Below, piece after piece: positions 1,715 through 25,144 of a DNA stretch of 27,610 nucleotides. A program made the position numbers and the translations under genes. Source of the stretch: a virus; IMG/VR virus record IMGVR_UViG_3300017776_000137, positions 1-27,610 of that record. The stretch is one strand, 5' to 3'. Numbering within the stretch: position 1 is the stretch's first letter; every line of letters begins with the position of its first letter. Below the pieces are notes generated by a model. It did not search any database, was not told where the DNA came from, and saw only the letters and a program-made list of their open reading frames with translations.

Positions 1715-1933
1715 ATGCCAATGCGACACTGGATTTCCCTTCACCCGTCGGCTGCCTACATTCCAGCGGTCCTTGAGGCCGACGAAGAAGAAGAGGGCGG
1801 AGAGTACCTCTTCGACCCAGAAGCCGGGAGGGCCAGCGACAACCCGTTCGCCCACCTGCATCTGGAGGATGCCCCCTCGACAGAGGCGGCTTCCGATGCG
1901 AGCGTGAGTGAGTATGCCACAGAACAAGAGTGA
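1715..1933 (+). CDS. Small acidic protein of unknown function
   Basis: A 72-codon ORF starting 9 nt after the tail protein stop, with GAGGG at 1704-1708 six nt before the ATG; a second in-frame ATG at 1721 is possible. The product is strongly acidic (run EADEEEEGGEYLFDPEAG around residues 21-38) and has no cysteine, signal peptide or membrane segment. Its last codons overlap the start of the next ORF by about 20 nt, as expected for translational coupling. It sits between the tube protein and the chaperone pair, a place where head-tail or tail accessory proteins are common. I do not recognise a family and assign no function. That it is a real gene rests on spacing, the ribosome binding site and the absence of a better frame in this stretch. 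Confidence 0.6.
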   Translation: MPMRHWISLHPSAAYIPAVLEADEEEEGGEYLFDPEAGRASDNPFAHLHLEDAPSTEAASDASVSEYATEQE

Positions 1934-5389: not shown

Positions 5390-7396
5390 ATGGCCATCCC
5401 AATCCGACTTCTCGCTGGTACAAACGGCGAAATTCAAGTGGATTTGAACGCACAGAGCATTGACATCGGAGTTGACCGAAACATCAGCGCTTTTCCGACA
5501 CCCAACAACGTCTTGAAGCGGTTTGCTTCTGACACGAACATCCCTCGCATCACCGTCGAGATTGACGGCATTCTTGACGACGACGCAAGTATCGACACGC
5601 CCACTGGCGTACAGCGCACCCTTCCGTCACGCATGCTCTTCAACTTCGGCAGCATGTTGCCGACAGAGCCGTTTTCTCCCTTTAGACCCGCTCGCAGGCC
5701 ATACACAATGCGCTCAGGTACGAGCAGCCTTAGGCTGGTATCTGAAGAGGTCCTCTATCCAAAATTGACGGCAGTGTTGAGTCGAGCAAAAGGTTCTACT
5801 GCAACTCTAAGCAATTTGACGACCAACCCGTCTCATCAACTGTTCAATCACCACGGTCAATTCTCTGCCAGACTCAAATTTCCGGGCAGCCATTCCGCAA
5901 GTGCAACTGGTGCGCTGACGGTCGCATCAACCCTCAGTCTCCAAGGCTCTGTTCTGAGTATCGCTACTGACCCAGATAAGTTGGGTGCTTCCGCGATTCT
6001 GAGTATCGGTGACCGCATCGTCAAATCTGACGGGACGTTTCTTGGCCTTGTTTCGACGTTGACGTCGACAACCATCACGTTCGCTTCCGCTTTGCCAAAT
6101 GCAATCTCCGCCAACGACGAAGTCTTCATCAGTCCGAAGTGCTTCAATAGTCGTTCAGAGTTTCTCGGCTACCTAAGCACAATTTCTCTGAATGCTGCAA
6201 ATCGGACCTATGATGTGGTGCTCACGGAACCCATTTTGGAGAATGTACTGGTAGGCGATTCAATTACCATCAATCAAAGTGAGAACGACATCGTTAGTCG
6301 TCTTCATCAGCGAAAATTGAAAATTGTCCCGAACTACTGGTTGGAGGACCCGGCACGTAACCCAAAAGGCTCTCTGGCAAACACCGACGTTGATTTCCCG
6401 TCTGGTCGAAACATTGGTGTACGACTGCAGTTCAATGCGAACAAAACCTCGCCAATTTTAGGAGGCTCCGACCAACCAAGTATTCTTCACACTGCGACTG
6501 GCGTGAGTCGGGGCACGAGTTTTGCTGCCCGAGATGCCGCGCATTTCGACGCAGTGATAGACGTTCCAATTGGTGGTCTGGCAGATACCACTGGCCTTAA
6601 CCCGGCGGTGATTATGGCACAAATTGTCCAAGACGCTTTGACCAACGCGGCTGTTACGTCAGCCAACATCAGCAACGTCAAATTGGCACCGGGCAACGAC
6701 AAAACACTGACTGACGTATTCACGGTTACGCGACAAGGTTCGCTTGTTCTCGTAGAACAGCGCTATCAGCCAAACACCCCGGTTGAACACCCGCCGGTCA
6801 TGGACCGCTCGTTGGAAGAGGACTTTTCGCCTGAAGTGTTCATGTCCTCCACACAGTTTGACTCGGCCGCAAAGAAGTCCGCGGGAGACAAGGTACAGGA
6901 CCTGATAGGGCTCGTTTCTAACGCAGGTCGCCACTCCGACCTTTTCCGAGGCGTACAGATTCCATACGACAGCCTCATCACCAGTTCTGGTGTGACGGGA
7001 GTTGCTCGAAACTTCTTCCTGACGTTTGGGAATGTCCCCGCATCAGAGAAAGGGTCACTTGCCAATGAGCGGTCGGCCTCGCTTCCCATGCAAGGTCTGC
7101 TTCTGGATGACGTCGTTGGGGGCAACAAGGCTGACGAGGGGAGCAGAGAGGGTGGCTTGTTGAGCCGCTTCGCAGACAAGATGGGAGATTTCGGAGACGA
7201 CCTCCAGTCATTGACGGGCTTCCTTGTCGATAACGTGCAGTCGCTGTGGGTCACGATTGACCGCAGCATTTCACGGGGCAACGATGGCGGCATTCGGATT
7301 ATCCCAGAGAAGGTTCATGTGCGATATGATGCTGGCAAGAACTACTACACGTTCCACATGGTGCTTGTCGCCACGGACTTCGTGCTGGGGGTGTAA
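5390..7396 (+). CDS. Tail/baseplate structural protein, paralogue of the upstream gene
   Basis: 668 aa, ATG at 5390 with GAGGTGA (5379-5385) four nt before it and starting 9 nt after the upstream stop. The ends match the preceding protein: IPIRLLAGTNGEIQVDLNAQ and ITVEIDGILDDD at the start; SAGDKVQDLIGLV near residue 497, GVQIPYDSLIT near 521, ARNFFLTFG, and the last strand YTFHMVLVATDFVLGV. The centre differs: instead of a LamG domain it has a beta module (GDRIVKSDGTFLGLVSTLTS, ending NDEVFIS, about 205-250), a segment with HQRKLKIVPNYWLEDPA, and a linker-rich 560-620 region. The paralogy is strong evidence that the shared ends form one conserved core with exchangeable central inserts. Part of the middle (about 5740-6760) is visibly AT-richer than its surroundings. 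Probably a distal tail or baseplate component; exact family not recognised. Confidence 0.6.
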   Translation: MAIPIRLLAGTNGEIQVDLNAQSIDIGVDRNISAFPTPNNVLKRFASDTNIPRITVEIDGILDDDASIDTPTGVQRTLPSRMLFNFGSMLPTEPFSPFRPARRPYTMRSGTSSLRLVSEEVLYPKLTAVLSRAKGSTATLSNLTTNPSHQLFNHHGQFSARLKFPGSHSASATGALTVASTLSLQGSVLSIATDPDKLGASAILSIGDRIVKSDGTFLGLVSTLTSTTITFASALPNAISANDEVFISPKCFNSRSEFLGYLSTISLNAANRTYDVVLTEPILENVLVGDSITINQSENDIVSRLHQRKLKIVPNYWLEDPARNPKGSLANTDVDFPSGRNIGVRLQFNANKTSPILGGSDQPSILHTATGVSRGTSFAARDAAHFDAVIDVPIGGLADTTGLNPAVIMAQIVQDALTNAAVTSANISNVKLAPGNDKTLTDVFTVTRQGSLVLVEQRYQPNTPVEHPPVMDRSLEEDFSPEVFMSSTQFDSAAKKSAGDKVQDLIGLVSNAGRHSDLFRGVQIPYDSLITSSGVTGVARNFFLTFGNVPASEKGSLANERSASLPMQGLLLDDVVGGNKADEGSREGGLLSRFADKMGDFGDDLQSLTGFLVDNVQSLWVTIDRSISRGNDGGIRIIPEKVHVRYDAGKNYYTFHMVLVATDFVLGV

Positions 7397-7398
7397 CG

Positions 7399-10300
7399 AT
7401 GACGCTGACCATAGACCCCGGTTTCGGCTTGCGCTTCAACGGCGTAAGCGACAGCGTTCTGGTTCCGGTGAACCAGAACTTTGTTCATGGTCTTCAGCAA
7501 GAAGAGCGTAAGTCTCTGCCGAATGCACTGTCGGCGTTCACCCTTGAGACGTGGTTCATTCCTGACTCAGGAGGCACCATCTTTGAGCAAGAGAACGTTA
7601 TGCGACTCACAGTCGGCAGTCCCAGCAGTCCGGCTCCAGCAACGTTTGAGATTCGTCTGCGCAACCAAGCCAGTGGACGAGATGCAGTTTTCTCACTGTC
7701 CACGGCCAAGCCGGTCACGAAGGCCAACGGTCGGCTCGCATACTGGGACGGGGTGCTGTTCCCGCATAGTGATGAGGTCAACGACGCTTACCTCGCCACC
7801 GACGTTGAGCGGGACGACGTGACGGCGTTCAACGAAGGGCACAGAGAGTTGCTCAACGTGACTGCAATGTTTGACGGGCGCATTCTCAGCCTGCTCATCA
7901 ATGGCGATTTGGCGGTGTCGAAGACGCTTGATGAAGTGCATGAACTGGTGCCACAGCAGAACAGCATGTACCTCGGAGGTCGCGGCGGTGATTTCCGTGG
8001 GACATTGGAAGCCATTCACTGGTCCAGTGGAGCGATGCCCTCCGGCCATCAGCAGTATGCCCCAGTCAAGAGCGACAACACGCTTGGCCTGTGGCGGTTT
8101 GAAGAGCCCGTTAGCCCGATTACGACCATCACCACCTCGCCGTCAATCTCGGCATCAACGAGCGCTACTTCGAGCATCAACATTGGAGCGACGGCTGCGC
8201 AGACACTGGTCGATGAACTGAGCGGTCAGAGCGGGCTGACGTCTCTGGACTTCACAGCCAGCCCTTACAGTGGTGGCTCGTACAAAGTCACTGTCTACTC
8301 CGCCTCCTCTTCTTCGGATGTTTCAATCCCAAAGGTGCCGTACAACATCTTGGTCAACCCATTGGCTTACAGCCAGACGACAGGAAAGCCCACGAACAAG
8401 GCACCTGAGCGTTTGCGCCTGATGGCGATTGACGCCAGTGCGGGAACTATCACCGTCGAGTCCATCCACCTCGACTTTGCATCCAACGCCAGCACTGGTC
8501 GTCGCGGAGCGCTCATGGCTCACGACGCAGGTCGCTTCGTCATCATCACTGGCGACTGCATTGTCGACACAGGTGAGGGCAACGAGTTCCAGCCCTACGG
8601 CAGCGGCACGCAGTTTTCTCAGCGACAGAGCCAAGTCATCATTGACGAGAGTGACTTCGAGCACAGCGGCATCATGTTCTCTCAGAGCATGGCCATTGAT
8701 GACCATGAGTACAACAAGTTCTCGGCCAGCACGACCAACATGGGCTCCAAGTTTGTCACCGGGCATAGCGGAAGGCACACGCTCAACCATGTGGTCAGTC
8801 ACCCGTTCATGGGTACTCTCCCACCAACAAGCGCTCACGAAGTCGAGAAGAAACTGGACATTGGTAGCGATGTGATTTCTGCAGCCTTCCCCAGCCAATT
8901 CTCCGATATTCGCTCAACAGTCCCGAGCAATAGCGTCGTTACTTCCTACGATACACACGGGCCGATGACTGTTCAGTTTTCTGCTGCAGCAGGCTTGGTC
9001 AACACTGTCGTCGAAAACGGTATGTCCGACATCGCTGACTCAAAGCGTAGCATTCTCGCCATTGGTGGGCCAAAGTTCGACCCAACGCCGTTCATGCTCA
9101 AGGCAGTCTCTGGCAACCAAGAAGCCGGCGACACGAAGTTCATGGTCCCCTCGTCCGAGGCTCGTATCGCCACGCTCTCTGTTCCCCGACTGCGGTCGTA
9201 CAGTTACGCCCCCTTCGTGCAGGTTCACTACGATGCTATCGACTTCGAGGGCTCCCAGTTCACTGTAGGGGCTACGAGTCGATTGACTGCGGGTATCAGT
9301 GGGGCGAACAAGGTACTGACGCTTCAGAGCGCCAAGTCGTTTGGGTATGACGGACAGACCATCTTAGCATCAGACATCAGCATTGGTGGCGTCACCGCCT
9401 CTACGACCGCCGGCGTCACAGCAATCATCAATCATTCAGCGAAGACGCTCACGCTTTCAGCCGCGGCGCAGTCCAGTTTCGTCACGTTGGCTGTGACCGG
9501 CGCCATCGTGCAAAAGACTGACAACTCGCCAAAGTTGATGGTGACAAAAACACTACCTGACGTTGCTACAGAGTTGGCAAGTGGCTACTCAATTCTTGAC
9601 CTCATCCGAGATTCCATGGCCATTGAAGACTTGGAACTCGTCGCGCCCGGCGGCATCATTGAGTTTGAAACTCCAGAGATGTTCGTGTTTGAAGACGGCG
9701 AACTGGAGGGCGAGCACGCGGAAGGCACTGTTGCAGAAAGCGTACTGGACCGCTCGCTCTGCCCAGAGAACTACCTACCTTTGACGTCCAGTGACCCCGT
9801 GCAGACCACGCCGCAGGCCATCGCTGTGGCGAACGCCGACCTGCAATCGCGCGGCTCTATCTTCCACCGGTTACTCGTTCGAGCAGATGAGACCGACAGC
9901 GTTGGCTTTGAGGACACGGGCGGCTTCAGCGTCAGGAAAGCGACCAACGGTGCTCGCCCCCGCACGGGTGTACGCATTAACAACGGCTCAGGCTACTCTT
10001 CTTCGACTTCCTCTGCCATGACTGTTGATGGTGTAGATGCGACCACAGTCATTGCCGTCAACGACATTCTGTACAAGTCAAACGGCAAGAACTTGGGCAA
10101 AGTCACCGCCGTCACGTCCACCTCTGTGACGATTGGCGGTGGCACCAGCGACGCTCTGGTCGACAACGACGAACTGTTCACCCAACCGCAGATGGTTGGA
10201 CGTGGCACAGTCAACCAGAGTTCTTGCGTGCACGAGTTCTTCGACATCATCGAGCACACAACGAGGGGTAAGAAGACCCGCCTGATTGTCCAGCCCAGCG

Positions 10301-13300
10301 ACCGAGCGCGCCTCAACATGCTGAGTAAAATGCTCACGGGTACGGACAGCAGTAGCACGGTGACCATTGAAAGTCTCGTGGCACGTGGACGAGTCGTCTC
10401 TTTCTCTGACGATGCTGATGGTCAGACCGTTATGCGTGCGCATGGCGTCATCGGTGACCTCGCATCATCCAGCGTGAACGTCAAGGGTTCAGCGGCACCC
10501 GACTCACACATCGTGAAGGAAATCATGCCGGGAGCACCGGTCGTCACCATGATGCTTGGAGGTGGCGGGCAAGGCGCGGTCAACACCAAGGAGACGTGGG
10601 ACCCCAGCCCTCTGGGCCGCCTCGCTTGGAACACGCGACGCGACTGCCAAGCCGTGGTCAGTTCGACGAGCAGTACGACTGTCGTGGTGCTCCCTCTCAA
10701 CAACAAGGCGGATGACCTGCAATCATGGGGAACCTACTGCTTCCCGAAGGTTGGTCGGATTTACCTACAGTTGGCGACAAACCAAGGTGAAGGTATTGAG
10801 TTTGCCAGTGCTGAATACACCAGCAAGACTGGGACGACATTCACGTTTGCTTCCAGCACCGGACACCTCGGAACGGGGAAATTCGTCCTTGCGGACGGGT
10901 CCGAAGCCGACTCTCTGGCAGCGTGGATTACGGCGACATCAATTACCGCAGGAAGCGTCATTCACCTCGACGACAAGTTCAGCGAGGAAACCATGTGCAA
11001 TGATGGGACGACCATCAATGACCGATTGTTCCAGACTCTCGACACAGTCCAACACGACTACCAGTTGGGCACGCAATACGCAAGCACACGCGCACTGGTA
11101 GAGATTCCGCTCTTTGAGGACTTCTTCTTCGATAACCCAGAGAGGGGTGTCTTCCCCGGACCCAACAACAGCATGAAGTTGCACGTTGATGCGACGCATA
11201 CGGCTCATTCTTGGAATCCCAGCCCGGTCGGTCGTCGACCAGAGTCGGTCGCTCCCCGTGACCCTGAATTGTTTGGCCCGTTCTCCTACACGGTGCAAAA
11301 CCAGAGTCATCGTAGCGGGACCAAGGTCACACGCCCATACGACTCAGGTAACGCTCGCGTGTATGTCGAAGATGCTAACCTGTTTCCGATTCCTTCTGCA
11401 CCGCCGGTCGAGGTTGCCGAACTGGGTGGCAGTGCCCGCTACCGACGCGCTTTCCTCGCCAGCGGCGAGTGGGTCACCTACAGCGCTCGGGACACCACCG
11501 ACCACTACTTGACGGTCGTCGACAGCGGTGATGACCACGGGTTCAGCGAGCACTTCTTGCGCGACATCAAGGTAGGCGCACACATCTTCCCGTCTCCCGG
11601 CTACCAAGACATGTCCTACTCAGGCATCGCGGACAATCCAAGTCTCATCAGTGCTGGATATGAGAGCCGCCGCTCGTTTTACTTCGACCGCGCCAACGTG
11701 ATGACGCAGGGCGGTAACGTCGACTACGGCCTGCGACAGTACGTCAGCGCCATTGAACTTCGTGCCGGACCGACATCCAATCCGCACCTACCCCGCATTG
11801 CCAACAAGAGGCCGCGTGCTAAGGCTGTGTCTGTGACCGGTAGCCCTGCAACTTCAATCACACTTGATGATGCGTCACTATTCCCTATCGCAAGCCACGA
11901 CTCCAACTATAAATTCCGAGTCGGTTGGAAAGACGCTGCTGGGACGACGTATCGTGGTTTCTACGACAACCGTGTAGGCAACGTGCTAACCATCGTCAGT
12001 CCAGACTCAGGCTTTACGCCTGCTGTGGGTGACGAAATCTTCGTCGAAGACTTGCACGATACTACAGGGGGCCAATTCCCCCAGACACTGGAGACCTTCC
12101 TCAACCGTGCATGGGCTCACCCCTTCTGCGGTGGTGGGCTGCGACAGGGTGACACTGTCTGGATGAACATGCACTACACCAACCCTCACGCCATTGAGGG
12201 GTTGTTCTGCAAAAGCCGCGGCACACTCAACGAAGCAGAGGTCTGGTCTGGATTCAACGGTGGTGTCTCTGGTCCCAACGTCAGCCCCCGCGACAGCATT
12301 CCAATGGAGAACTTCTTGATTGGAAACACGTGTACTGAGACGGCTCAGAACCTCGTGCAGCACATCAACAAGACCATTCAATTGAACTACGAAGCGCTGA
12401 AGACTTCGACCACTGCACCCGTCGTGGCTTACATTGACCCATACCAATGCACCGAAGACTTTGCCCGCATCCTCCTTTACGACGTCGCGCATGACCGCGA
12501 GTTCATCGCATTCCAAGACCTACACATGCAGGTCCAGACAAGCGCCGCTGCCTCGTCCATCGGCAACGAAACCTCGTTCAGGACACCTATTCACAGCGCT
12601 GCAACGTCCGGCTCTGGGCTGGACGTAGCCGCAGGCTTCCCTTCACAGAATAAGCGCATCATTTCAACTCACAAGTCGGACTTCGTCGAATCAGCCTATG
12701 CCCACAACAGCGACTGGAACGAGAGCGTAGCCGACGGACTGTCTACTCACTACGTCGGCGGCGCTGATGATTTGGCTACCGACGGCTTCTCTGACCGAAC
12801 AAACAGCGCTACGGTCAAAACGGCTGCAGATGACGCATTGGTGAAGCATCAGAAGATTGATGCGGACACACGAGAACGGTCTACGTTCTTTGATACGCCT
12901 GACGGGACGCGCATCATCCCTGCATTCCTTGGCATGAAGGGGATTCGCGCAGGCACGCTTGACCTAACCAGTCACGATGAAGCACGGCTGAAATACCTCG
13001 ACCACTGGACGAAAATGGATTTCGTTCGTCGCTTGACGGTCGACTTGGGCGAAGTTGCCTTGCGAGACGGTGTGACCAGCATTGAATCTGCTGCACTGGA
13101 AGTCGTTCGCCTCATCAACCAAGCGGGAGCAAAGAACGGCAAAACGCATGCTCGGCGACCGAACGACCAGTTTCTCGGAGAAAGCAGCAAATTCGACCTT
13201 GCCAGCCCCGGACCAAAGAGCAGTGCCTTTGGCACCAACATCGACCCGGCGGCTACCCACCTGCACGCAGACTTTGCCGCAACAGCCTCGACTCACGACC

Positions 13301-16300
13301 CTGCGCCGTTCTGGGACCCCTCCAAGGCATTCTCCAGTCATGACCGTGGTACGCACATGGGCTACGTGCGCGCACACCTCGGCCGAGTTGTTCTCGATTC
13401 TGACGGGCGACCCGGCTTCTCAATCGTCATTCACTCGACGGTTCCCGGTGCAGCGGGTCGCAATTTCTGCACGTGGCTGGACAGCAGCAAAGCCCAGAGC
13501 CCGTATCGACCGCAGTTCCTTATCGGACATGGCGGTCGCTTCCGCAACTACTGGTGCCAACCTGACGAGGTTACGGGTGAAAACATGCACCCCGCACCGA
13601 TGCCTATCAACCGATTTGGGCGACCCTTTGCACCCATCACGACGCTCAAAGAGCACCTGCCGCCGGAGAGTCCGAGTGACGCTTTGCTCAACAACCTCGA
13701 TTTCGGACCTGACCGTGTTGACAGCACCACGACTCTGACTGACGCTTCGCGCGAAGGCGGGAGTGGTCGCAACGCTAACACGGCTCTCAACGAATCGTTT
13801 GAGACAAAGAGTCCTGCGTCGGTGCTGGTCGACGGTCTGCGAGTGGGCACCCAAGCACGGGCTCGCATCAACTTTGGTGGCTTGACGCAGGCTGGTATTC
13901 CCGGCTGGGCACCTGACGTAGGCAAGTGGGGCTTCGGCAACGACGGCACCGAGTCGAATCTACAGTCGCGTTATGGTACAGCGTCCAACGTTGCTGACGC
14001 CATGACGGTGACCACCGAGGGTAGCGCTGACGGCTACATTCCTCAAGCAGACCTCAAGGCTGAGAATATCGGCAAGTCACCGCTCTACGGCTTGCGCTTC
14101 GTCGACCACCGTGGCGACAACCACACCATCCGCTTTGTCTACCGGCAGAACGAGCAGAAGTTCGCCAGCGACAACACATACCTGCCACCCACCCTCGACG
14201 AAGAAATTCTCATCCATTTCGATGACCGGGACGTGTCGCAAGGTGGCTTCACCGTCGGCGCACACATGGTGGGCACAGGCGAAGTGTGCGGTGAAAAGAC
14301 AGGCGGCACCGCCAAGAAGTTCAAGGGTAACCTTTGGAACAACTATCCTTCGCCAATCGTCGGTGCGAAAGCGACGACGTCGTTGTCCTCTGGGACCATG
14401 ACCATCACGCTTGGGGCATCCTACGACACCAGCGCCCCCGCTGTTCTCCAAACTCACCCCGACCTCCTCGGCTACCTCGGATTCCCTGAGAGCGGTATGT
14501 TCCAGTTGTCCAAGGCCTCCAGTGGGGCGCAAGGACTCACGTTCTACTACACCAGTCGAACGCACAATGGTTACGCTGGACCGCACAAGTTCTTCGGCGT
14601 CATTGGCGGCTCGTCCAGTCACAGCAACGGCGACTGGTATCTGAGTCCACGCATCAACTTCACCTGCCTCCTGACTGACGAGGTCATGGCCGCAGCAGTC
14701 GAGCACGCTATCAGCGGTACGACTGAGACGTTCGACTGTCGGGACATGTTCGCACCAGATGGTCGCACACTGGGCGAGTGGGGCGTCAGCGCAGACGCCA
14801 TCCACGTCGTTGCCCGGAACACCGATAGGGTACGACTCGGACGCTTGTTCGACGTGCGGCGGACCAAGGACTTCGGTCTGATGGACGGGGCTTCGACTGA
14901 CGCTGTCGTGTCGACCAAGCACACTGGTGGACTGAGCAACGCTGAGGTTGATGCGGGAACGCGACTCGATGTTGGCTACATCCCTGAGACCGTTCTCCAC
15001 ATCACGACGAAGTATCGTGGCTCGAATGCAAACACGGCAACGCCTGTGCTCGTCGACAGTCAGAACAACGTCGTGGACGTCACGACATGGCAGCGTAACT
15101 TGCGAGGCGAGAACTTCATTGACGTGCCCGGTGACCTCGTCATTCCACGCGTTGATTCACCCATCATCGAGGTCCATACCTTCAACGGCGGAGCCGGAGG
15201 CGCACTTTCCACTATCGAGGTCGCATCGAACGAATCACTCGCACTTTTGGGCAAACTTGCCTCTGACGATGCGGACACGTGGGGAGAGCCGCTCATCGTG
15301 TGGTACAGCACTACCGAATACGCCGAAGTGCGCAGCAAGCCCGGCACCAGTAGCGTCATTCAATTGGACGTAGTGACTCACTCAGCCAACTTTGCAGTGG
15401 TGGCCGGAGACACGTTGTTCAAGGGCACGACGCGCGCGTCGGACGCTGTCCGTACAGATGGTGTACGCCGAGCCGGTAGCAAGAACGCGAGCCCCTTCCT
15501 GTATTTCCGTGGCGGGCGCGACAGCCCCGACCACTGGGTGCCGCTCTACTTCGGTGGAGGCTTCTCTGGTGCAGTGGTCGACATCAACGACGGCACGCAG
15601 AACGACTACGCTGACTTCTACACTCATCCCTACGCCTCTGGTCCGACGGGCTCGGCGGGCTTCCAGAACATCGGCGAGATGGCTGGCTCTCACGCACTCA
15701 TCGACACGAATGCAATGCTCGCCATGTTTCCCGGTACGCCATACCTTGACCAACACCGCGGTCAGAATCACCCGCCGTTCTTCAACCAAGATGCACTGTT
15801 GTCCTACGACATGGCCAAGGGTGCCAACGCCAAGGCCACAGGACTGACCTACACCGACGGCAGCCGTAGCGTTGCCATCAACGTCCCGACGCCACTCATC
15901 CTTCGCTTTGCACATCCTCACGCACGCTACAGTGCGACAGGCGACTCTGACGACCAAACCATCTACATGATTTTCGGACCGGGGCAGGCGTTCCCTCACA
16001 ACACGGCTGCACACGAACCGCAGGGCGCGAACATCGTTACGACTGGTAACGGCTACAGTGCAGTGCCCATCTACATTGGTGGTAACACGGCCAAGGACTC
16101 CTTCCTCCCTAATCAATTAGCCAACGGTGACGCAACGGAGCACTCAGGTCTGAACAGAACCAGTAGCGCCGCTGCCCACCTACCGATGACGACTTTCTTC
16201 CAGCAGAACAACACGCGGGGCTTCAACTACCCGATGAACTGGCAACCCGCCAAAGGCTTCCCTAACACAAACGCAACGGGAAGCAAAACGTATTCTCAAG

Positions 16301-19300
16301 CACTTGCGAAGGCGTTTTACTTTGAAGGCTCGGTCGCTACGACCAGCAACCTACCCAAACACTACCACCCGTTCAACTTCGTGTTCTCAGACCTTGCTGG
16401 CGCTTCAATCGGGAGCGCCACTCACACAACCACTCGCAAGTCTTCAGTCATCTGGCACATGGACGGCGGCTATCACCCCGGAGGCCACTTCCTTGATGAC
16501 CACGTGTCCAAGAACCCAAAGAACCCTGTAGCCAGTGCTCGCATTTCCACTGGAAGCGGAAACAAGCACAACGGTACTTCGTTCCGCCCAGCCGGTCTAC
16601 TGGCTAAGGCATACCGTTCCTTTTACGCATCCGCGGGGTCTGAGGGTGACCAAGTCGTTGATGAGAACGTCGTCATCGTTGACGCGACGCGTTGCCAAAA
16701 TGCAGAGGAACTGGGCGCAGTGCTCAGCGGAGCCATCAACACGTTCCCCGGCAACGACCCGCTGAAAGCCATTGGTGGCACGTTCATGCCGAGCATGCAG
16801 AACGCACACAACCAAGACCGCTACGGCTGGGTCGAGTTGCCGGTCGTCTCATACGCCGCAGAAAGCGGTTCTACACCTGCTTCATTGGTCGTCACCAGTA
16901 CGGCTACTACCTATCCCGAGTATGGTTGGCTACGTGTTTCCGATGGCACGTCTGCGGGCTCAACCCCTTACATCTCACATAGCGTCGGCTCGCCCAACAC
17001 CACATTTACACTCGCTGTTTCTCCGGGCACGACTGCCACAAACATCGTCGATTCTGGACTCAATGCAATTGCACCCGGAGGCGATTTCAAGGCGTACATT
17101 TGGACTAAGGCTGGAACGCATCGTCACAACAACACAGGCACTGCTTCGCGTGACCACATGACTCAGGTGCACTTTTCTGGTTATCATGACGCAGTAGACC
17201 GCACCAAGCCTGTCGGTGCTGTCGGCTGGCACGGGGAAGCGTATTCCTACCTCAACTCATATGAGGCTGAAACCAGCGTTGGCGCTGATGTTCACTTCGC
17301 AGGATTAGGTGCGTGGCACCCACTTTTGGGTTTCAGTCCATACGGCGCTGCAGAGACTTGTCTTACTGGAGGTGCGCCTACGGGGGCTACAGAGAACCCA
17401 GCGGCTACCTTTGTCCAAGACTACTGCGTCACTGGTCTGTCTACTCGCCATCTCATCGCTGTGGCTCACGAAGCCGAGTTGCCGATTATTGCCAAGGCCG
17501 ACCGTGATGGAATCTCTTGCTCAGGTGACTGGCTGTACATGGTGCAGAGCACGAACATTGCGCATGCAGGAACGACCGCATGGAGTACGAGTAAAGTGCA
17601 CAACCGAAGTCGCTACGTTGGTCCTGCTACGGCCGGACCCCACGTTGAAGCACAGATTCACAGTTCGCTTTCAGTGCCGAACGAGGATAGCGACTATCCC
17701 GCCGTCGGGTCTGCGCCGAGTGACGCGCAGTGGCATCGCACTATCCAGAGTGGAGACATGGTGAGAGCCAACGCCTGTCGCTACCCAACAGGTGACTTGT
17801 TCTGGGATGAGAGCGTCGTGATTCAGTCAGGTGCGCACGAGTCCGCAAGCACGCTCGGCGTAGAGTGCATCGGCGTCAGCAGCCATGACCACTACCTCGA
17901 CATCGCTGCCAGTGCGACCAGTATGCCGCACAACGGACTGTTCGGCTACTTCAGCAGCCGACACGCAGCGCGAAACTTCCTACCTGAGCACGTCGTTTGG
18001 AAGCGTATGGATGGCGGTAGCCTGACGATGCCAGCCGTCAACGCGCGTGGTCTCGGAATGATTCCGTGGGTCCAGCGAAAGGACAGCGGTGCCACTGATT
18101 TCAAGACGGTGGGCGAAAAGGTACTGGGGAACGTGCGCTTCTCTTTCGAGACGACCAACGCTGCCATGTTCCCCATCATCCAAGCACAGGAGTTGAGTCA
18201 CCCGCAATTGGCCGAGCAGCATCCGCTCGAAGTGCGAAACGCGCTTCTTATCCCCAACGAAGACCAGCAGTTCAAGAGTATGCTCGTCACTGACGATACA
18301 GGGCAAGAGCACTACTTGGACGGCGGCTCGCCCCTTGGCACCGTCATTCTCGACTTCCGACATATCAGTGACCGCGAAATCGAAGGCCTCGCTCCTGCAC
18401 TTGCAGGTGCAGGCGTCAACCCAAACCTCCGTATTCGCTTGCCCGAGCCTGACGAGATTCCGGGGAACATCGTTATCCGTAGCGGATTTGACCGTATTCA
18501 GGCATATCAAACTGAAACGATTGGCTCAGGTGGGTTGCAGCACCCTGCTCAGAACATCGCTCAGATTCGTCAGATGTTCAACAACGAATACAGCGGCCCC
18601 CGACTATGGCCTACATGGGAGAATAATGGCTGGGAGCACCTGAGTCAGGACGCAGTGGATATCTCGACTACTAAGAGCGACTCCCGCCTCAAGTTCCCCG
18701 CGTCTACCAGCGAAGGCTGGACAGACCACACGGGCAACGCGCCGTTGGAATCGGCTTACGAGCCTCATGACCGTAGCCTGTTCTTCCACGTCACACGCAT
18801 GGGTGTGAGCATGACGCATCGCTTTGACCTCGACGAACTCAACTATTCGAGTTACAGCGGCACAGAAATCAACGTCGCCACCACACCTGAAGCAGCGGTC
18901 TGGACTGACTCCACTGAGCAGAGTGGCGGCCGTTACTTCTTGCGTGTGTATGACCCAGCAACGGACAAAGGCGTGCTCGCCTCCTACACAGGCGTGTCCA
19001 CGAACAAGTTCACTGGCGTGGTCTATAGCCCAGACTTCGCATCCTTTGTCTTGGGTAAGACAGGTCTGAAGGTCGTCCCGTCTTACTACATGCCTGCTGG
19101 CAGCACGCGCATGTTCGCAGCCCGCCGCTTGCGTGACCACAGCGAATACAGTGGTGCCAGCCCCGACATGGTCAAACTCGATTGGTTCGACATCTACAGT
19201 GACCTGCCCAGTAGCACGGGAGCAATGGCCAACCCGTCTGCCCCTTACACGCGGATGACGGCTCCGAAAATGACGCCCATGCCTATTCCTCGCATGGGTC

Positions 19301-22300
19301 ATCACTACGTCACGCCGACCATGGCGATGATGCCCGGTCACTACGCGCACCCTGCATACCAGCGCCTTTACAGCCTGAACAGGGCTTGTGCCAGTTCTAA
19401 CCATGCACCGTATGAAGATTCGCTGATTGGGAACAGAGAGGGTACACGTACCAGCGTGACGTCGACGGTGCTGACGCACGGAAATGGGCGCGACCCACTT
19501 GTCTGGTTCTCAACGCCAACGGCTCCGTTCGGGCCAAGCGACATCCACGGCGGAGCGTTCACACTCCTGACCGAAACCAAACTGAAGTACGAAGGCTACG
19601 GCGTCGCAGCCAGTGCAGGTGCGAATGCGGGTGACGTGAACGCAGAGGGCGGACATACGCTTGTCTTGGAGGCGGCTAACACCTACACGATGAACAATCA
19701 CTTCCCCGACCCGCTGGAAGTCGGGGCCTACCAAATCATCATTCAGCCGAACGTGTTCAAGCAGCAGTTGCAGGGCTTCCATCAAAACCACGCGACTGAG
19801 AACAAGGCACCCAGTGAAGCGGGCACCAAGGTCACCGAGTTGACTGGGCAGCAAGTCAACACCGTCATCGCCATCGAAAAGGACATGTCCACTCGCGGGG
19901 CCTATGCACTGATTCTTGCCGAGGCAATGATGGCTGACGTGCGCGGATGCGAGGTGATTCTCAACGAAGTCATCCTCGACATTGAGCCGGACGCGAGCAG
20001 TCAGTTCACGAACTTGCCTCCACTGGCGTTGTATAACCCACTGGGCGTGCAAGAGAGCAGCAGCCCATCCTTCACCCGCAGAAGCCTACCTTATCGACCG
20101 GGCATGTTCCAAAGTGCGACGCCGGGCCGAACGCTGACCATCCCGTGGTGGGGCATTCTGCACAAGGACGGAGCCGATGCAACTGGTGCGGCTAAGTTCC
20201 GGCATTTGGAGTGGCACAGGCCAGACAACTACTACGAGTTCTGTCGAGTAGGCTATGGCGCCGTTGGTGCTCAGATGACACTGGCAGGCTACCCGACGTC
20301 TTTCTTGGACCTCTATGAGCCGCACAAGCGCCTGCGTAGCCTCAACCCGAACTGTATCGTCATCAGCGACAACGGCTCGTCCACCATCACAGTCGACGAC
20401 AACGCAATGTTCCCCGTCAAGCCCTACTTCGGCGAGGTGCTGGAATACACGAAGAACGGTGTGCGGTACACGGCCACCTACACCAATCGCACAGGTACGT
20501 TGGCTCACGCCACGCTGGGCGAGAGCGACACGTTCTCTGGCGTATCTGGCAACGCTGCGTTCTGGGCCAACATCGGTGCGAATACGATTCTCCGCCTCAG
20601 CCGGCCCTACGACAATGGGTCGTCTGATGACCTGTTCACACGCTCAGAAGTCAGCATCATGACACGCAATCTGCCACAATACGCCAACGGCAGTCGAGAC
20701 ACCAACTCACTGCATGCGCCTGACGCGTTCCTGTGCATGTGGCACCCCAACCTTGGCCGACCGTTCACATGGTACAGTGACAACGCCAGCCGTGCATTCT
20801 ACACCAACGCTGGGACTGCAGATACACCGGTCGACCAGAAGCCGCTCAACCACGTGCCAGAGCACTTCGAGACTATCCACTACCACGATTTCAACTACGT
20901 CGCCAGCAAAGGGCCGTTCGGTCTGGCGATGAAGTGGGTGGTGCCACCTCACGACCACGACAACAACGCAGGTACAGCGCTGAGCCACGACGGCACGCTG
21001 ACTTCTGCTACGGACATTGACGCCAAGGTTGACGGCGGAGGCACGCTGAATCACCAAGGTGGTACAGTAGGTTCCAACAAATACAACTTCTCGGGCTTTT
21101 GGCCCGGCGGTAGCCACGGTGGCGGTGCAGCGAGCCGGATGGAATCCTATGGTCACGCGTTGATTGGATGGGGCAGCGACACCTTTGGCATGGACTGCGA
21201 GACGTATCAGGATTCGACGGGCATTGCCACACTCTCACTGCCCAATGACCGCAACCGCTGCTTCGGTTACCGGATGGCAGTGCGCCAACTGTTCAACCGA
21301 CCTCGTTGGTCACCGTATGTGCGCGGCTGGCTTGAGGTAGCGAACAGCAACGCGATGCTCGGCTACTACCATGGACCACTTATCCAACAGGATTCCAAGA
21401 CAAATGGATGGGACTACGTTGGCTCGGATTCTGGACAAAGTGACCAAGACTTCGACGCGCTCTACGTTGGCATCCTTGAGCGCATCACGCAGGTCTCCAG
21501 CCTCCTCGGTCAAGACCAGATTGGGCGACAGGTGCGCTACAGCGATGGTCGTCGCATGACTGGGCCGTTCGGATGCCCAGTCCGTACCATGCGCAACGCA
21601 TCCACGACCACGCGCCTATTCCCCAACGATGAGGCAGGGCAAGGCACTGAAGACTTGGCTCGCGCTCACCGCCACTACATGGTCGACTGGTGGGGCAACA
21701 CGCGTGGCGAAGAAGTCAGGCGTTTCCCTGTGCGTGGATTCGGGTTGCGGCCATCGTGGGACCCTGAAGACGCATACGCAGACACCAACGTCACGCACCG
21801 CCCTGCGGCTAACGGCCTATTCGGTGGCGACGGAAACGACCGCTACAGCGGCAACGACAACAGCGGCAACAACGCGGCCACCAACATGGGCACGGCTGAC
21901 TGGTTCAACCCTGCCAGTGCGCTGCGTGTGGGCGACCGTGGAGACGGTCGAGGCGTCCGCTGGCCCACAGTGTTCAACGAAAGCCTACTGATGGCTGTGA
22001 GTGAGCCGCACGACGCAACTGGACTGGTCCTCAGCCATAGTACAGCCGAGCCTGCGTTTGGCCAAGGACTCGTGCGACCAAGCAACGTGGCGTTGCAGGC
22101 TGGCGAGATTGAGCGCGGTATCAGTGACCGAGTGGACCTCAACAGCGACGACGGCTTGCTCAAGCCCTCCGCACACGTAGGTGAGGGCGTCGAGTCGGTC
22201 AACGCCGACACGCGCGGTGCAGAGCCAGTCAGTCGCAACGACGTGCGCTTGGGCCTTGACGTGGACACCATTGCTGAACTCAACGATGGCGTGAGCCGAG

Positions 22301-23124
22301 AGTACGTCGTCATGTCCACAGAGGCATCCAGCCTGCACACGGACCGCGCAGTGGGGCAGCGGACAAACATCCGCGGTGCCTACGACGTGGGTAGTCGCAC
22401 CCTCAAGGACCTCGACATGACTGCTCTCAACTGGTCAGACAAGCCTGTGTCTGGCGTAGTCAAGCACTCTGATGCCCACGCCATGTGGCCACTTGGCGGC
22501 ACCTACGTCATGGAATGGAGCAAGCACGCGGGCGTCCTTGACGTCAAGGGATGGGGTAAGTCTGGCGCCTCGACCTCATCCAACCCGTATCAGGACAGCA
22601 ACCACGACCCCGTCAAGGAGAACGTGAACTATACGGACGGCACCATCGAGTTCCTGTATCGACCGGCGCATACGCTTGACGCCAAGCACAGTCAACTGTT
22701 CCGAGCCTTCCTCAACACAGGTGGTCGACAGACTGGCTCAAACTTCTACCGCGCCACGGCTGGCGGCAAGTACGGGCTGTTCACCAGCGACGCACCCAGT
22801 GCTCGTACTGGCACTCCGAGCAGCCCTCCTTACGCCCCCGTGTACGACGTGGACCCCTCTTCCCCGACCACCGCCGACAGCAATGGTCCGAAGATTCAGG
22901 GCGTCGACGTCGCTGGCTTCGACAAGACCGACGTCCGTTCCCCAGTCGCTCGCATGGTGATGTCCGAGAACACGTTGGAGCATTTCCGCGCCGACGCGAG
23001 TCGTCGCTCTACCGATGACGATGAGGGCGACTTCAGCGTGCAACCGCGCCACAGTCAAACCCTGCACCCCAAGGGTAGCAAAGGCGACACTTCCTTCAAC
23101 ACCGGAGACCACAGCGGAGAGTGA
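7399..23124 (+). CDS. Giant modular virion protein (5,241 aa) with LamG domains and repeated beta modules
   Basis: ATG 7399, two nt after the upstream TAA, with a G-rich ribosome binding site (GGGGGTG). One uninterrupted frame of 5,241 codons, roughly 0.57 MDa. Residues about 10-235 are a LamG-like jelly roll (FGLRFNGVSDSVLVP, AFTLETWFIPDSGGTIF, ILSLLINGDLAVSKTL, NSMYLGGRGGDFRGTLEAIH, TLGLWRFEEP). At 857-929 is a module also found in the downstream hub (INNGSGY, TVDGVDATT, LYKSNGKNLGKVTAV). Short beta modules of about 70-90 residues recur near 1086, 1318, 1475, 2325, 3160, 3833 and 4318, several with a DD..(L/M)FP motif. A Met/His/Pro-rich patch is at 3957-3987. A second LamG-like strand set (DGTIEFLYRPAHTL, SQLFRAFL) starts near 5079; the last 100 residues are Ser/Pro/Asp-rich. 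No enzyme motif, signal peptide or membrane helix seen. Likely a tail-tip, side-fibre or adhesion protein; exact role unknown. Confidence 0.75.
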   Translation: MTLTIDPGFGLRFNGVSDSVLVPVNQNFVHGLQQEERKSLPNALSAFTLETWFIPDSGGTIFEQENVMRLTVGSPSSPAPATFEIRLRNQASGRDAVFSLSTAKPVTKANGRLAYWDGVLFPHSDEVNDAYLATDVERDDVTAFNEGHRELLNVTAMFDGRILSLLINGDLAVSKTLDEVHELVPQQNSMYLGGRGGDFRGTLEAIHWSSGAMPSGHQQYAPVKSDNTLGLWRFEEPVSPITTITTSPSISASTSATSSINIGATAAQTLVDELSGQSGLTSLDFTASPYSGGSYKVTVYSASSSSDVSIPKVPYNILVNPLAYSQTTGKPTNKAPERLRLMAIDASAGTITVESIHLDFASNASTGRRGALMAHDAGRFVIITGDCIVDTGEGNEFQPYGSGTQFSQRQSQVIIDESDFEHSGIMFSQSMAIDDHEYNKFSASTTNMGSKFVTGHSGRHTLNHVVSHPFMGTLPPTSAHEVEKKLDIGSDVISAAFPSQFSDIRSTVPSNSVVTSYDTHGPMTVQFSAAAGLVNTVVENGMSDIADSKRSILAIGGPKFDPTPFMLKAVSGNQEAGDTKFMVPSSEARIATLSVPRLRSYSYAPFVQVHYDAIDFEGSQFTVGATSRLTAGISGANKVLTLQSAKSFGYDGQTILASDISIGGVTASTTAGVTAIINHSAKTLTLSAAAQSSFVTLAVTGAIVQKTDNSPKLMVTKTLPDVATELASGYSILDLIRDSMAIEDLELVAPGGIIEFETPEMFVFEDGELEGEHAEGTVAESVLDRSLCPENYLPLTSSDPVQTTPQAIAVANADLQSRGSIFHRLLVRADETDSVGFEDTGGFSVRKATNGARPRTGVRINNGSGYSSSTSSAMTVDGVDATTVIAVNDILYKSNGKNLGKVTAVTSTSVTIGGGTSDALVDNDELFTQPQMVGRGTVNQSSCVHEFFDIIEHTTRGKKTRLIVQPSDRARLNMLSKMLTGTDSSSTVTIESLVARGRVVSFSDDADGQTVMRAHGVIGDLASSSVNVKGSAAPDSHIVKEIMPGAPVVTMMLGGGGQGAVNTKETWDPSPLGRLAWNTRRDCQAVVSSTSSTTVVVLPLNNKADDLQSWGTYCFPKVGRIYLQLATNQGEGIEFASAEYTSKTGTTFTFASSTGHLGTGKFVLADGSEADSLAAWITATSITAGSVIHLDDKFSEETMCNDGTTINDRLFQTLDTVQHDYQLGTQYASTRALVEIPLFEDFFFDNPERGVFPGPNNSMKLHVDATHTAHSWNPSPVGRRPESVAPRDPELFGPFSYTVQNQSHRSGTKVTRPYDSGNARVYVEDANLFPIPSAPPVEVAELGGSARYRRAFLASGEWVTYSARDTTDHYLTVVDSGDDHGFSEHFLRDIKVGAHIFPSPGYQDMSYSGIADNPSLISAGYESRRSFYFDRANVMTQGGNVDYGLRQYVSAIELRAGPTSNPHLPRIANKRPRAKAVSVTGSPATSITLDDASLFPIASHDSNYKFRVGWKDAAGTTYRGFYDNRVGNVLTIVSPDSGFTPAVGDEIFVEDLHDTTGGQFPQTLETFLNRAWAHPFCGGGLRQGDTVWMNMHYTNPHAIEGLFCKSRGTLNEAEVWSGFNGGVSGPNVSPRDSIPMENFLIGNTCTETAQNLVQHINKTIQLNYEALKTSTTAPVVAYIDPYQCTEDFARILLYDVAHDREFIAFQDLHMQVQTSAAASSIGNETSFRTPIHSAATSGSGLDVAAGFPSQNKRIISTHKSDFVESAYAHNSDWNESVADGLSTHYVGGADDLATDGFSDRTNSATVKTAADDALVKHQKIDADTRERSTFFDTPDGTRIIPAFLGMKGIRAGTLDLTSHDEARLKYLDHWTKMDFVRRLTVDLGEVALRDGVTSIESAALEVVRLINQAGAKNGKTHARRPNDQFLGESSKFDLASPGPKSSAFGTNIDPAATHLHADFAATASTHDPAPFWDPSKAFSSHDRGTHMGYVRAHLGRVVLDSDGRPGFSIVIHSTVPGAAGRNFCTWLDSSKAQSPYRPQFLIGHGGRFRNYWCQPDEVTGENMHPAPMPINRFGRPFAPITTLKEHLPPESPSDALLNNLDFGPDRVDSTTTLTDASREGGSGRNANTALNESFETKSPASVLVDGLRVGTQARARINFGGLTQAGIPGWAPDVGKWGFGNDGTESNLQSRYGTASNVADAMTVTTEGSADGYIPQADLKAENIGKSPLYGLRFVDHRGDNHTIRFVYRQNEQKFASDNTYLPPTLDEEILIHFDDRDVSQGGFTVGAHMVGTGEVCGEKTGGTAKKFKGNLWNNYPSPIVGAKATTSLSSGTMTITLGASYDTSAPAVLQTHPDLLGYLGFPESGMFQLSKASSGAQGLTFYYTSRTHNGYAGPHKFFGVIGGSSSHSNGDWYLSPRINFTCLLTDEVMAAAVEHAISGTTETFDCRDMFAPDGRTLGEWGVSADAIHVVARNTDRVRLGRLFDVRRTKDFGLMDGASTDAVVSTKHTGGLSNAEVDAGTRLDVGYIPETVLHITTKYRGSNANTATPVLVDSQNNVVDVTTWQRNLRGENFIDVPGDLVIPRVDSPIIEVHTFNGGAGGALSTIEVASNESLALLGKLASDDADTWGEPLIVWYSTTEYAEVRSKPGTSSVIQLDVVTHSANFAVVAGDTLFKGTTRASDAVRTDGVRRAGSKNASPFLYFRGGRDSPDHWVPLYFGGGFSGAVVDINDGTQNDYADFYTHPYASGPTGSAGFQNIGEMAGSHALIDTNAMLAMFPGTPYLDQHRGQNHPPFFNQDALLSYDMAKGANAKATGLTYTDGSRSVAINVPTPLILRFAHPHARYSATGDSDDQTIYMIFGPGQAFPHNTAAHEPQGANIVTTGNGYSAVPIYIGGNTAKDSFLPNQLANGDATEHSGLNRTSSAAAHLPMTTFFQQNNTRGFNYPMNWQPAKGFPNTNATGSKTYSQALAKAFYFEGSVATTSNLPKHYHPFNFVFSDLAGASIGSATHTTTRKSSVIWHMDGGYHPGGHFLDDHVSKNPKNPVASARISTGSGNKHNGTSFRPAGLLAKAYRSFYASAGSEGDQVVDENVVIVDATRCQNAEELGAVLSGAINTFPGNDPLKAIGGTFMPSMQNAHNQDRYGWVELPVVSYAAESGSTPASLVVTSTATTYPEYGWLRVSDGTSAGSTPYISHSVGSPNTTFTLAVSPGTTATNIVDSGLNAIAPGGDFKAYIWTKAGTHRHNNTGTASRDHMTQVHFSGYHDAVDRTKPVGAVGWHGEAYSYLNSYEAETSVGADVHFAGLGAWHPLLGFSPYGAAETCLTGGAPTGATENPAATFVQDYCVTGLSTRHLIAVAHEAELPIIAKADRDGISCSGDWLYMVQSTNIAHAGTTAWSTSKVHNRSRYVGPATAGPHVEAQIHSSLSVPNEDSDYPAVGSAPSDAQWHRTIQSGDMVRANACRYPTGDLFWDESVVIQSGAHESASTLGVECIGVSSHDHYLDIAASATSMPHNGLFGYFSSRHAARNFLPEHVVWKRMDGGSLTMPAVNARGLGMIPWVQRKDSGATDFKTVGEKVLGNVRFSFETTNAAMFPIIQAQELSHPQLAEQHPLEVRNALLIPNEDQQFKSMLVTDDTGQEHYLDGGSPLGTVILDFRHISDREIEGLAPALAGAGVNPNLRIRLPEPDEIPGNIVIRSGFDRIQAYQTETIGSGGLQHPAQNIAQIRQMFNNEYSGPRLWPTWENNGWEHLSQDAVDISTTKSDSRLKFPASTSEGWTDHTGNAPLESAYEPHDRSLFFHVTRMGVSMTHRFDLDELNYSSYSGTEINVATTPEAAVWTDSTEQSGGRYFLRVYDPATDKGVLASYTGVSTNKFTGVVYSPDFASFVLGKTGLKVVPSYYMPAGSTRMFAARRLRDHSEYSGASPDMVKLDWFDIYSDLPSSTGAMANPSAPYTRMTAPKMTPMPIPRMGHHYVTPTMAMMPGHYAHPAYQRLYSLNRACASSNHAPYEDSLIGNREGTRTSVTSTVLTHGNGRDPLVWFSTPTAPFGPSDIHGGAFTLLTETKLKYEGYGVAASAGANAGDVNAEGGHTLVLEAANTYTMNNHFPDPLEVGAYQIIIQPNVFKQQLQGFHQNHATENKAPSEAGTKVTELTGQQVNTVIAIEKDMSTRGAYALILAEAMMADVRGCEVILNEVILDIEPDASSQFTNLPPLALYNPLGVQESSSPSFTRRSLPYRPGMFQSATPGRTLTIPWWGILHKDGADATGAAKFRHLEWHRPDNYYEFCRVGYGAVGAQMTLAGYPTSFLDLYEPHKRLRSLNPNCIVISDNGSSTITVDDNAMFPVKPYFGEVLEYTKNGVRYTATYTNRTGTLAHATLGESDTFSGVSGNAAFWANIGANTILRLSRPYDNGSSDDLFTRSEVSIMTRNLPQYANGSRDTNSLHAPDAFLCMWHPNLGRPFTWYSDNASRAFYTNAGTADTPVDQKPLNHVPEHFETIHYHDFNYVASKGPFGLAMKWVVPPHDHDNNAGTALSHDGTLTSATDIDAKVDGGGTLNHQGGTVGSNKYNFSGFWPGGSHGGGAASRMESYGHALIGWGSDTFGMDCETYQDSTGIATLSLPNDRNRCFGYRMAVRQLFNRPRWSPYVRGWLEVANSNAMLGYYHGPLIQQDSKTNGWDYVGSDSGQSDQDFDALYVGILERITQVSSLLGQDQIGRQVRYSDGRRMTGPFGCPVRTMRNASTTTRLFPNDEAGQGTEDLARAHRHYMVDWWGNTRGEEVRRFPVRGFGLRPSWDPEDAYADTNVTHRPAANGLFGGDGNDRYSGNDNSGNNAATNMGTADWFNPASALRVGDRGDGRGVRWPTVFNESLLMAVSEPHDATGLVLSHSTAEPAFGQGLVRPSNVALQAGEIERGISDRVDLNSDDGLLKPSAHVGEGVESVNADTRGAEPVSRNDVRLGLDVDTIAELNDGVSREYVVMSTEASSLHTDRAVGQRTNIRGAYDVGSRTLKDLDMTALNWSDKPVSGVVKHSDAHAMWPLGGTYVMEWSKHAGVLDVKGWGKSGASTSSNPYQDSNHDPVKENVNYTDGTIEFLYRPAHTLDAKHSQLFRAFLNTGGRQTGSNFYRATAGGKYGLFTSDAPSARTGTPSSPPYAPVYDVDPSSPTTADSNGPKIQGVDVAGFDKTDVRSPVARMVMSENTLEHFRADASRRSTDDDEGDFSVQPRHSQTLHPKGSKGDTSFNTGDHSGE
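9967..10188 (+). repeat. Beta module shared with the hub gene, copy in the giant gene
   Basis: Encodes residues about 857-929 of the giant protein: GVRINNGSGY, then TVDGVDATT, LYKSNGKNLGKV and a closing DALVDNDELF. The partner copy is at 24475-24702. Similarity is at protein level; the DNA has diverged at many third positions, so the event is old. Confidence 0.7.
11350..12051 (+). repeat. Two neighbouring FP-type beta modules in the giant gene
   Basis: Residues about 1318-1399 (ARVYVEDANLFPIPS at the start, VGAHIFP at the end) and 1475-1551 (SITLDDASLFPIASH at the start, VGDEIFVED at the end) share the plan: strand, DA.LFP, an RY/KF strand, a Y-containing strand, and a final VG..IF strand. 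Related copies appear near 10654, 14371 and 20350. Seen at protein level only. Confidence 0.5.
20350..20622 (+). repeat. Distant copy of the FP-type beta module in the giant gene
   Basis: Residues about 4318-4408 begin with STITVDDNAMFPVKPYFGEV and continue with YTATYTNRTGTLAHATLG, paralleling SITLDDASLFPIASH and FYDNRVGNVLTIV in the copy at 11821-12051, some 8.5 kb upstream. The DNA is not visibly conserved. Confidence 0.45.
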
Positions 23125-24787: not shown

Positions 24788-25144
24788 ATGCCGTTGTTGA
24801 ATGAAGGAACTCGATTTTTGGTCGACACGCTGAAGGACCGCATCAACGAGGTTGTTTTCGGATTTGACGGTACGTTGGCTACGCAGCAAGACGGCGGCAT
24901 TGGCAATCCAGCGGTGGTTGTTACGCCGAGTGTGAAGGTCATTGACGACAACACCTTGATGGTTGAGGCCAGCGTGCCTCTAAGCACGGCGTTCACGCGG
25001 CCTTTGCGAGAGGTCGTCATTCGCTATAAAAATCCGAGTGATTCGACAGACACGACGGACTTTATGCGCTACACCTATAACGCAATTGAGAAGACCAGTA
25101 ACAACGAGATTCAGTTTTCAGCACTCATCGAGGTGGGCATTTGA
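24788..25144 (+). CDS. Small baseplate or tail-fibre adaptor protein candidate
   Basis: 118 aa, ATG 24788, one nt after the hub gene stop, with a strong AGGAGAGG (24776-24783) upstream. The start MPLLNEGTRFLVDTLKDRIN is a short helix of the kind seen in small phage proteins that join fibres to the tail (typically LxNxGxxxIRDLxN). Then come strands around PAVVVTPSVKVIDDNTLMVE, a segment with FTRPLREVVIRYK, and an ending EIQFSALIEVGI. No cysteine, no signal peptide, no membrane segment. It lies between hub and fibre and its stop overlaps the fibre start, so it is probably co-translated with the fibre and may be its attachment piece. Resemblance to the adaptor group is by memory of the pattern, so the function is tentative. 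Confidence 0.5.
   Translation: MPLLNEGTRFLVDTLKDRINEVVFGFDGTLATQQDGGIGNPAVVVTPSVKVIDDNTLMVEASVPLSTAFTRPLREVVIRYKNPSDSTDTTDFMRYTYNAIEKTSNNEIQFSALIEVGI
25130..25136 (+). promoter_or_regulatory. Ribosome binding site supporting a TTG start for the tail fibre
   Basis: GAGGTGG at 25130-25136 is four nt upstream of TTG 25141-25143, which overlaps the TGA of the preceding gene (bases TTGA). The first in-frame ATG (25180) has no comparable site before it, so the TTG is the better start. Confidence 0.45.

Follow-up and report, generated by a model that had tools for sequence, protein, structure and literature searches.

In tail proteins of the lambda J or Tal type, the tail hub shares one chain with large additional parts, and in lambda J these parts follow the hub domains. 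The baseplate hub of Haloferax tailed virus 1 (HFTV1), an archaeal tailed virus with a non-contractile tail, is represented by chain BD of PDB entry 9H4P (953 residues), presumably gp44; a carbohydrate-binding domain at its C-terminal end was proposed by its authors, and a hub partner of several thousand residues is not described in the excerpts of that paper (PMC12494034). In Thermus phage P23-45, the tape-measure protein is a virion component of 5,002 residues (PMC10770324, in excerpt). Among the viruses of MGII, clade 1 of Nishimura et al. bears a thermosome (PMC5332604, in excerpt), and Aoguangviridae carry GroEL (PMC10768690). The giant protein analysed here is not described in PMC10768690, PMC12999244 and PMC13108676 or in the excerpts of PMC5332604, PMC10160649, PMC12451623, PMC5628999, PMC8651126 and PMC12494034.

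The window, i.e. the whole stretch of DNA analysed, is the entire IMG/VR record IMGVR_UViG_3300017776_000137 (27,610 bases), a genome fragment of a marine archaeal virus that is uncultured. It contains the following features (coordinates in the window):

2..1705, + strand: tail tube protein, 5' end cut by the contig end (PF18906 Phage_tube_2, E 1.1e-5, 25.6 bits against a cut-off of 27; syntenic in relatives)
1908..2294, + strand: candidate tail assembly chaperone, by position; conserved between genomes
2446..2871, + strand: possible short tape measure (141 aa, 50% helix formers), following the chaperone candidate
2864..5380, + strand: putative distal-tail-type protein o4 with an inserted LamG domain (3593-4051, E 1.6e-19)
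5390..7396, + strand: putative distal-tail-type protein o5, by synteny, with a mobile module of ~75 aa at aa 171-251
7399..23124, + strand: giant, putative tail-tip protein (ATG start, 5,241 stop-free codons, ~565 kDa, 57% of the window)
7855..8037, + strand: N-terminal LamG-like stretch of the giant (PF13385, E 8.5e-4, 13.8 bits against a cut-off of 27.6)
9967..10194, + strand: mobile ~75-aa module in the giant (aa 857-932; E 2.9e-33 with its own HMM, which was built partly from this copy)
20359..20601, + strand: predicted small beta-barrel in the giant (aa ~4321-4401; AlphaFold block means 49-85, the sole confident part of 1,200 modelled residues)
22966..23121, + strand: conserved C-terminal tail of the giant, beyond whose corresponding point relatives run on into the hub
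23131..24786, + strand: tail hub of the baseplate hub type, as judged from its model (hub fold at aa ~157-399, mobile module at aa 449-525)
24788..25144, + strand: small conserved tail protein o8 (118 aa), whose profile finds a counterpart adjoining the hub gene of G099
25141..27609, + strand: tail fibre, 3' end cut by the contig end (PHROG tail fibre families, best E 1e-18)

No family match was obtained for the chaperone candidate or for o8. The profiles of o4 and o5 both matched one 409-aa protein of the distant relative G099.

The sequence-only reading had described the giant as a single virion-type gene in a tail module, lying next to a hub candidate, filling more than half of the window with one open frame and containing no recognisable enzyme. 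The frame was confirmed at its full length, and the other points held as well. Searches against Pfam and PHROG yielded no family for the giant at E 0.001, enzyme families included, the weak matches being Laminin_G_3 (0.0051), PKI (0.075) and phrog_16087 (0.043). Sequence searches of PDB with five alignments of the giant returned chance-level matches (antibody chains, a Na/Ca exchanger) or nothing. The phage collection contained no relative of the giant (searched with two pieces, E 1e-5), of the tube or hub, or of the proteins of G094 and G099, and megablast of 25 kb against the same collection gave no match. A full-length match to a described family was found in none of these libraries. In prokaryote genomes, two short patterns from the giant produced 25 matches, none of which was confirmed. 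The giant frame contains no tandem repeats; the 20 largest of 32 families of direct repeats consist of 20-35 nt in 2-3 copies that are mostly 70-86% alike.

Homologues of similar length were found on other IMG/VR contigs. Frames of more than 5,000 aa numbered 36, and after exclusion of G091, G096 and G102, which are cut by the end of the contig or stretch, 33 complete single frames of 5,168-6,359 codons were retained (window included), all from separate contigs of tailed archaeal viruses with a GC content of 0.42-0.57 and including the near-duplicates G000/G007 (97%) and G005/G011 (98%). Lengths were counted from the first ATG, GTG or TTG after a stop and may be a few residues off. Scanning with the first 1,000 residues of the giant identified 12 contigs, whose best segments were 67-100% identical; seven of the 12 also matched the C-terminal 841 residues, with one open frame of 5,194-5,264 codons each. 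A scan with the hub gave 87 relatives, and in the best 80 of these 87, all screened by blastp (upstream frames were tabulated for 66), giant sequence lay upstream of the hub at 70 loci, while at the other 10 the hub starts at most 1.3 kb from the end of the locus. A second clade was opened by a scan with the PolB of G004. The hub was found in 40 of the 41 PolB-related contigs and the C-terminal giant profile A2 in 34 (both counts including that of the query itself); the seven contigs lacking A2 comprise six with the hub at the contig edge and G063, which is cut at the tail module. The giant profile A9 was compared with 37 records (35 of 63 loci plus L182 and L109), 24 of which gave no match; G063, G092, G094 and G101 were followed up.

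The 19 giants compared first were colinear and 58-98% identical, with 1,840 of 5,241 positions invariant in ten representatives. Between the two clades, identity amounted to 43-45% over ~4,900 aligned residues, again in colinear order, and 1,125 positions were invariant in 25 giants of both clades. The invariant residues include many Trp, Tyr, Arg, His and Cys. The larger differences in length are due to insertions at a few fixed sites. The region least conserved between the clades is aa 501-1000 (6-31% identity per 100 aa, with gaps counted as differences); conservation remains high up to the last residue, a hypervariable tip is absent, and the C-termini are similar in both clades. In a comparison of G005 with G007, the giant and the hub were each 73.5% identical, the tube 72%, the MCP 92%, o4 52% and o5 45%. 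Values of dN/dS per window were 0.037-0.089 for G010/G002 and 0.027-0.179 for G014/G033, with dS above 1 in many windows of these two pairs, and 0.066-0.172 for G058/G071. The giant gene is real, strongly conserved and of virion type. Judged from sequence, such conservation fits a structural protein that bears load better than a tip that determines host range.

LamG-like segments had been proposed for both ends of the giant. The N-terminal one was recovered as a weak match below the cut-off, and none was detected in the last 441 aa of the window's giant. Laminin_G_3 was found at E <=0.1 in nine of 16 aligned giants (best 1.4e-4), the window's segment not being among the nine; PF13385 did not exceed its cut-off anywhere in the window's giant but did so in the neighbouring o4. 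Opposite aa 5055-5059 of the window's giant, a LamG domain is inserted in G044 and G057. In the tail modules as a whole, LamG matches were present in 15 of 15 records at E <=0.001 and above the cut-off in 13; these Laminin G/ConA-like lectin domains (PF13385) make up a small fraction of the giant.

The same ~75-aa module occurs in the window within the giant (9967-10194), the hub (24475-24705) and o5 (5900-6142), and additionally in a small protein by the capsid genes of G005 (32785-33411). Altogether, 52 copies were found in 50 proteins of the searched set, near-duplicate genomes included. The hub copy (aa 449-525) is predicted to form a small beta-barrel. AlphaFold modelling of aa 4042-5241 of the giant gave no trustworthy fold (overall pLDDT 29.3; 35 alignment rows, all from one clade) apart from the barrel at aa ~4321-4401. 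Profile self-comparison revealed stretches of ~85 aa similar to this barrel at aa ~1300-1400 and ~1470-1560 (best probability 73 and 65). In VIA, the barrel reached Z 7.7 to 6.1 and tied with F1-ATPase barrels; the giant barrel and the hub module copy resemble small barrels in the Mystique tail tube, the former also lambda tail-tip chains, with ties for both to generic F1-ATPase or pyruvate kinase barrels.

The identity of the neighbouring gene 23131-24786, until then a hub candidate, was supported by the fold of its model (m76a0f41073f5; pLDDT 66.3, middling confidence). All 32 PDB matches of the model at E <=0.001 were structures of phage tails or baseplates, a gene transfer agent or contractile-injection/VgrG systems, including lambda tail-tip chains and the HFTV1 chain 9h4p_BD (E 1.7e-7), although with low TM-scores (TMq 0.21-0.30) and large rmsd in Foldseek. 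VIA comparison of residues ~157-399 gave Z 11.0 for MuSo2 and MC58 tail proteins, 10.5 for Mu gp44, 10.0 for HFTV1 and 8.1 for the T4 puncturing device, the well-matched part being the hub core of ~200 residues at 4-6 A. The hub alignment, which comprised the window's protein and 48 of 53 non-redundant hubs (L050, L062, L086, L112 and L120 left out; the 49 aligned hubs being 21-77% identical to that of the window), produced chance-level matches or none in sequence searches of PDB, and Pfam and PHROG gave weak matches or none, except for phrog_1887 and phrog_10359 with hubs of the G092/G101 type. On the strength of the modelled fold, the gene is taken to encode the tail hub.

In the window, giant and hub are separate genes (7399-23124 and 23131-24786) and not one chain, and the giant was therefore classified as hub-associated rather than as a Tal protein. 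Two distant relatives carry parts of the giant on one chain with the hub. In the 2,775-aa protein of G103, giant profiles matched aa 840-960 (E 2.1e-36) and 1987-2064 (2.6e-8) and the hub profile matched aa 2199-2674 (8.2e-33), so that the last match, which belongs to the C-terminal part of the giant, ends at aa 2064 and the hub begins at 2199. The 2,435-aa protein of G099 similarly showed a giant match (E 1.5e-26) followed by the hub (1.4e-25; all E-values for one genome). In G099, giant profiles matched three adjacent proteins in order (796, 1,598 and 2,435 aa), the last of which ends in the hub, and a similar trio is present in G103 (at least 989 aa, cut by the contig end, then 1,850 and 2,775 aa). 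The giant matches in both genomes cover stretches of ~40-200 residues and do not run end to end.

A third arrangement was seen in G092, G094 and G101, in which a small LamG gene (hhalign probability 71 to the N-terminus of the giant) is followed by a protein of 2,104-2,117 aa with a C-terminal hub (hmmsearch --max E 3e-6 to 1e-8; hhalign 81%). The hub end matched a PHROG tail-protein family in both proteins scanned, from G101 and G092 (E 3.3e-5 and 5.7e-5), and no resemblance to the giant was detected in the leader part (best probability 12). At the level of sequence profiles, comparison of the hub with windows of the giant gave no hhalign probability above 30. A tree of TerL and portal proteins, which has no outside root and was used for grouping only, formed one group of G099 and G103 and another of G092, G094 and G101, both distinct from the two clades of giants. 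The one-chain arrangement of G099, G103 and G101 resembles that of J- and Tal-type proteins; it differs from J in that the extra parts lie N-terminal to the hub, and the two main clades have them as a protein of their own, of far greater size. On the simplest reading, giant and hub function as a single unit of the tail tip, whose two parts are covalently joined in certain lineages and made as separate proteins in the rest.

Taken together, the giant is best explained as a structural protein of the tail tip (baseplate) that acts as one unit with the adjacent hub and resides on the hub's chain in some relatives (probability roughly 0.7). Of the three possibilities raised by the sequence-only reading, a baseplate scaffold came closest, given that in relatives this sequence is part of the hub's own polypeptide, and no support was found for a decoration strand. 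The giant would be located at the tail tip of the virion and would assemble on the hub, probably via its conserved C-terminal tail. The resulting tip body would be large, possibly trimeric and then of ~1.7 MDa, and would bear LamG domains and mobile barrels (modules of carbohydrate-binding type) at fixed sites. This body would contact the surface of the archaeal host, perhaps by binding glycans, and may pass the ejection trigger to the hub. A farther-reaching proposal, advanced tentatively and with the odds slightly against it, is that this is a never-described virion organ. It would be a body of megadalton size at the tail tip, built from a chain that ranks among the largest known in virions (5.2-6.4 thousand residues) and has its own folds; it would have arisen by fusion of tail-tip genes and separation of the hub, been kept across a whole group of Poseidoniales viruses and perhaps be folded with the help of the viral thermosome of these genomes.

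Other readings were weighed against the same data. The giant might be an adhesion fibre or receptor-binding protein of great length that is attached by one end and extends outward, which would fit the N-terminal LamG, the weak conservation of aa 501-1000 and the insertion of modules at fixed sites. This reading is nevertheless unlikely: there are hardly any repeats (only the three alike stretches of ~85 aa), conservation does not fade into a variable tip, a separate fibre-type gene lies downstream, and relatives have parts of the giant on the hub's chain. Since these matches are partial, slightly more weight is given to the fibre than it would otherwise receive. An injected or head-internal protein, such as cargo or a virion enzyme, is improbable; the invariant Trp, Tyr, Arg, His and Cys residues could hide an unrecognised catalytic site, against which stand the lack of an enzyme family match and of a credible sequence relative in PDB, the gene order and the one-chain fusion with the hub.

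It is still less probable that the giant is a tape-measure protein that sets tail length, as in P23-45, despite the precedent in size and its position in the tail module. The part of the P23-45 protein compared (2,764 aa) is rich in helix formers (57% versus 33% in the giant), and windows of 30 aa free of Gly and Pro account for 6.9% of that part and 0.4% of the giant. In addition, the giant gene occupies a different place in the gene order, after and not before those of o4 and o5, and its length varies by insertions at fixed sites. The alternative candidate for this function, the 141-aa gene, is itself weakly supported, a point in favour of the giant; its assignment is weak because the likely counterparts in other groups (344-494 aa, 25-42% helix formers) are not helix-rich. 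A tape measure encoded by this gene (2446-2871) would imply a very short tail. An artefact of assembly or frameshifting that fuses several genes is refuted as a general explanation by the 33 complete single frames on separate contigs of differing GC content and by dN/dS below 0.2 in every window of three pairs, although the content is split over several frames in G013 (1,652 + 3,702 aa) and G017 (960 + 4,411 aa; both ends present), breaks also occur in the fragments G003 and L127, and G099 and G103 have several genes.

The contigs with complete giants derive from tailed archaeal viruses that possess a thermosome and an archaeal-type PolB. Genes for terminase, portal, prohead protease and an SU10-type MCP are present in G005, together with one for an AAA protein interpreted as a clamp loader, and the best of the listed matches of the G005 PolB are haloarchaeal tailed viruses (24-25% identity). 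Chaperonins are of group II (thermosome) in G005, G072 and G103 and of the GroEL type in G101 and G094. The gene content reported for Magrovirales (PolB, chaperonin, HK97-type head genes, HMG-CoA lyase, ~90-110 kb) was found in the relatives and not in the window fragment; the longest contigs comprise 109,462 and 107,632 bases. Magrovirales/Aoguangviridae and the MGII clades share with these viruses a thermosome or GroEL, PolB, an HMGL-like gene, contigs of up to 109 kb and replication and virion genes that run in opposite directions (PMC10768690; PMC5332604, in excerpt). Because the thermosome is as in MGII clade 1 and GroEL as in Aoguangviridae, the viruses are, from their gene sequences, probably Magrovirales-like viruses of Poseidoniales. 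The best match of the viral thermosome among 11 genome loci was a Ca. Poseidoniales MAG (41% identity), which is suggestive. G004 carries a tRNA-Arg(TCT) gene (L038:11744-11817), the sole tRNA in 15 stretches scanned; this type is reported for an MGII virus (PMC5628999, in excerpt) and is a suggestive host link.

Several further observations were made on these genomes. G004 (L038:502-2901) combines the virion module of clade 1 with a PolB like that of clade 2, 38% identical to the one of G005, which suggests an exchange of modules between the clades. Between its portal and protease genes, G005 encodes a poorly conserved protein of 2,009 aa (34-44%; 24127-30156, L023:4127-10156), with a sub-threshold stretch resembling ATP-dependent DNA ligase at aa 1597-1691 (E 1.1e-4). 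For the protein of G005 9870-10589 (L022), counterparts exist in both clades as well as in G103 and G092/G094/G101; it gave no Pfam match and contains a P-loop, DIGGEE and NKAD, presumably small-GTPase-like motifs. A protein of 433-439 aa between terminase and portal (G005 19885-21204; G003 17218-18519, L030) has counterparts in all groups; the G005 copy contains what is presumably a LAGLIDADG-like stretch, and a Pfam scan of the G003 copy gave no match.

For this group of viruses, the giant provides a marker gene and, together with the hub, a natural series in which genes at the tail hub are fused or split. It also represents an extensive conserved protein sequence that matches no known fold. 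The giant takes up about a sixth of a 100-kb genome and is likely part of the organ by which these viruses contact their host.
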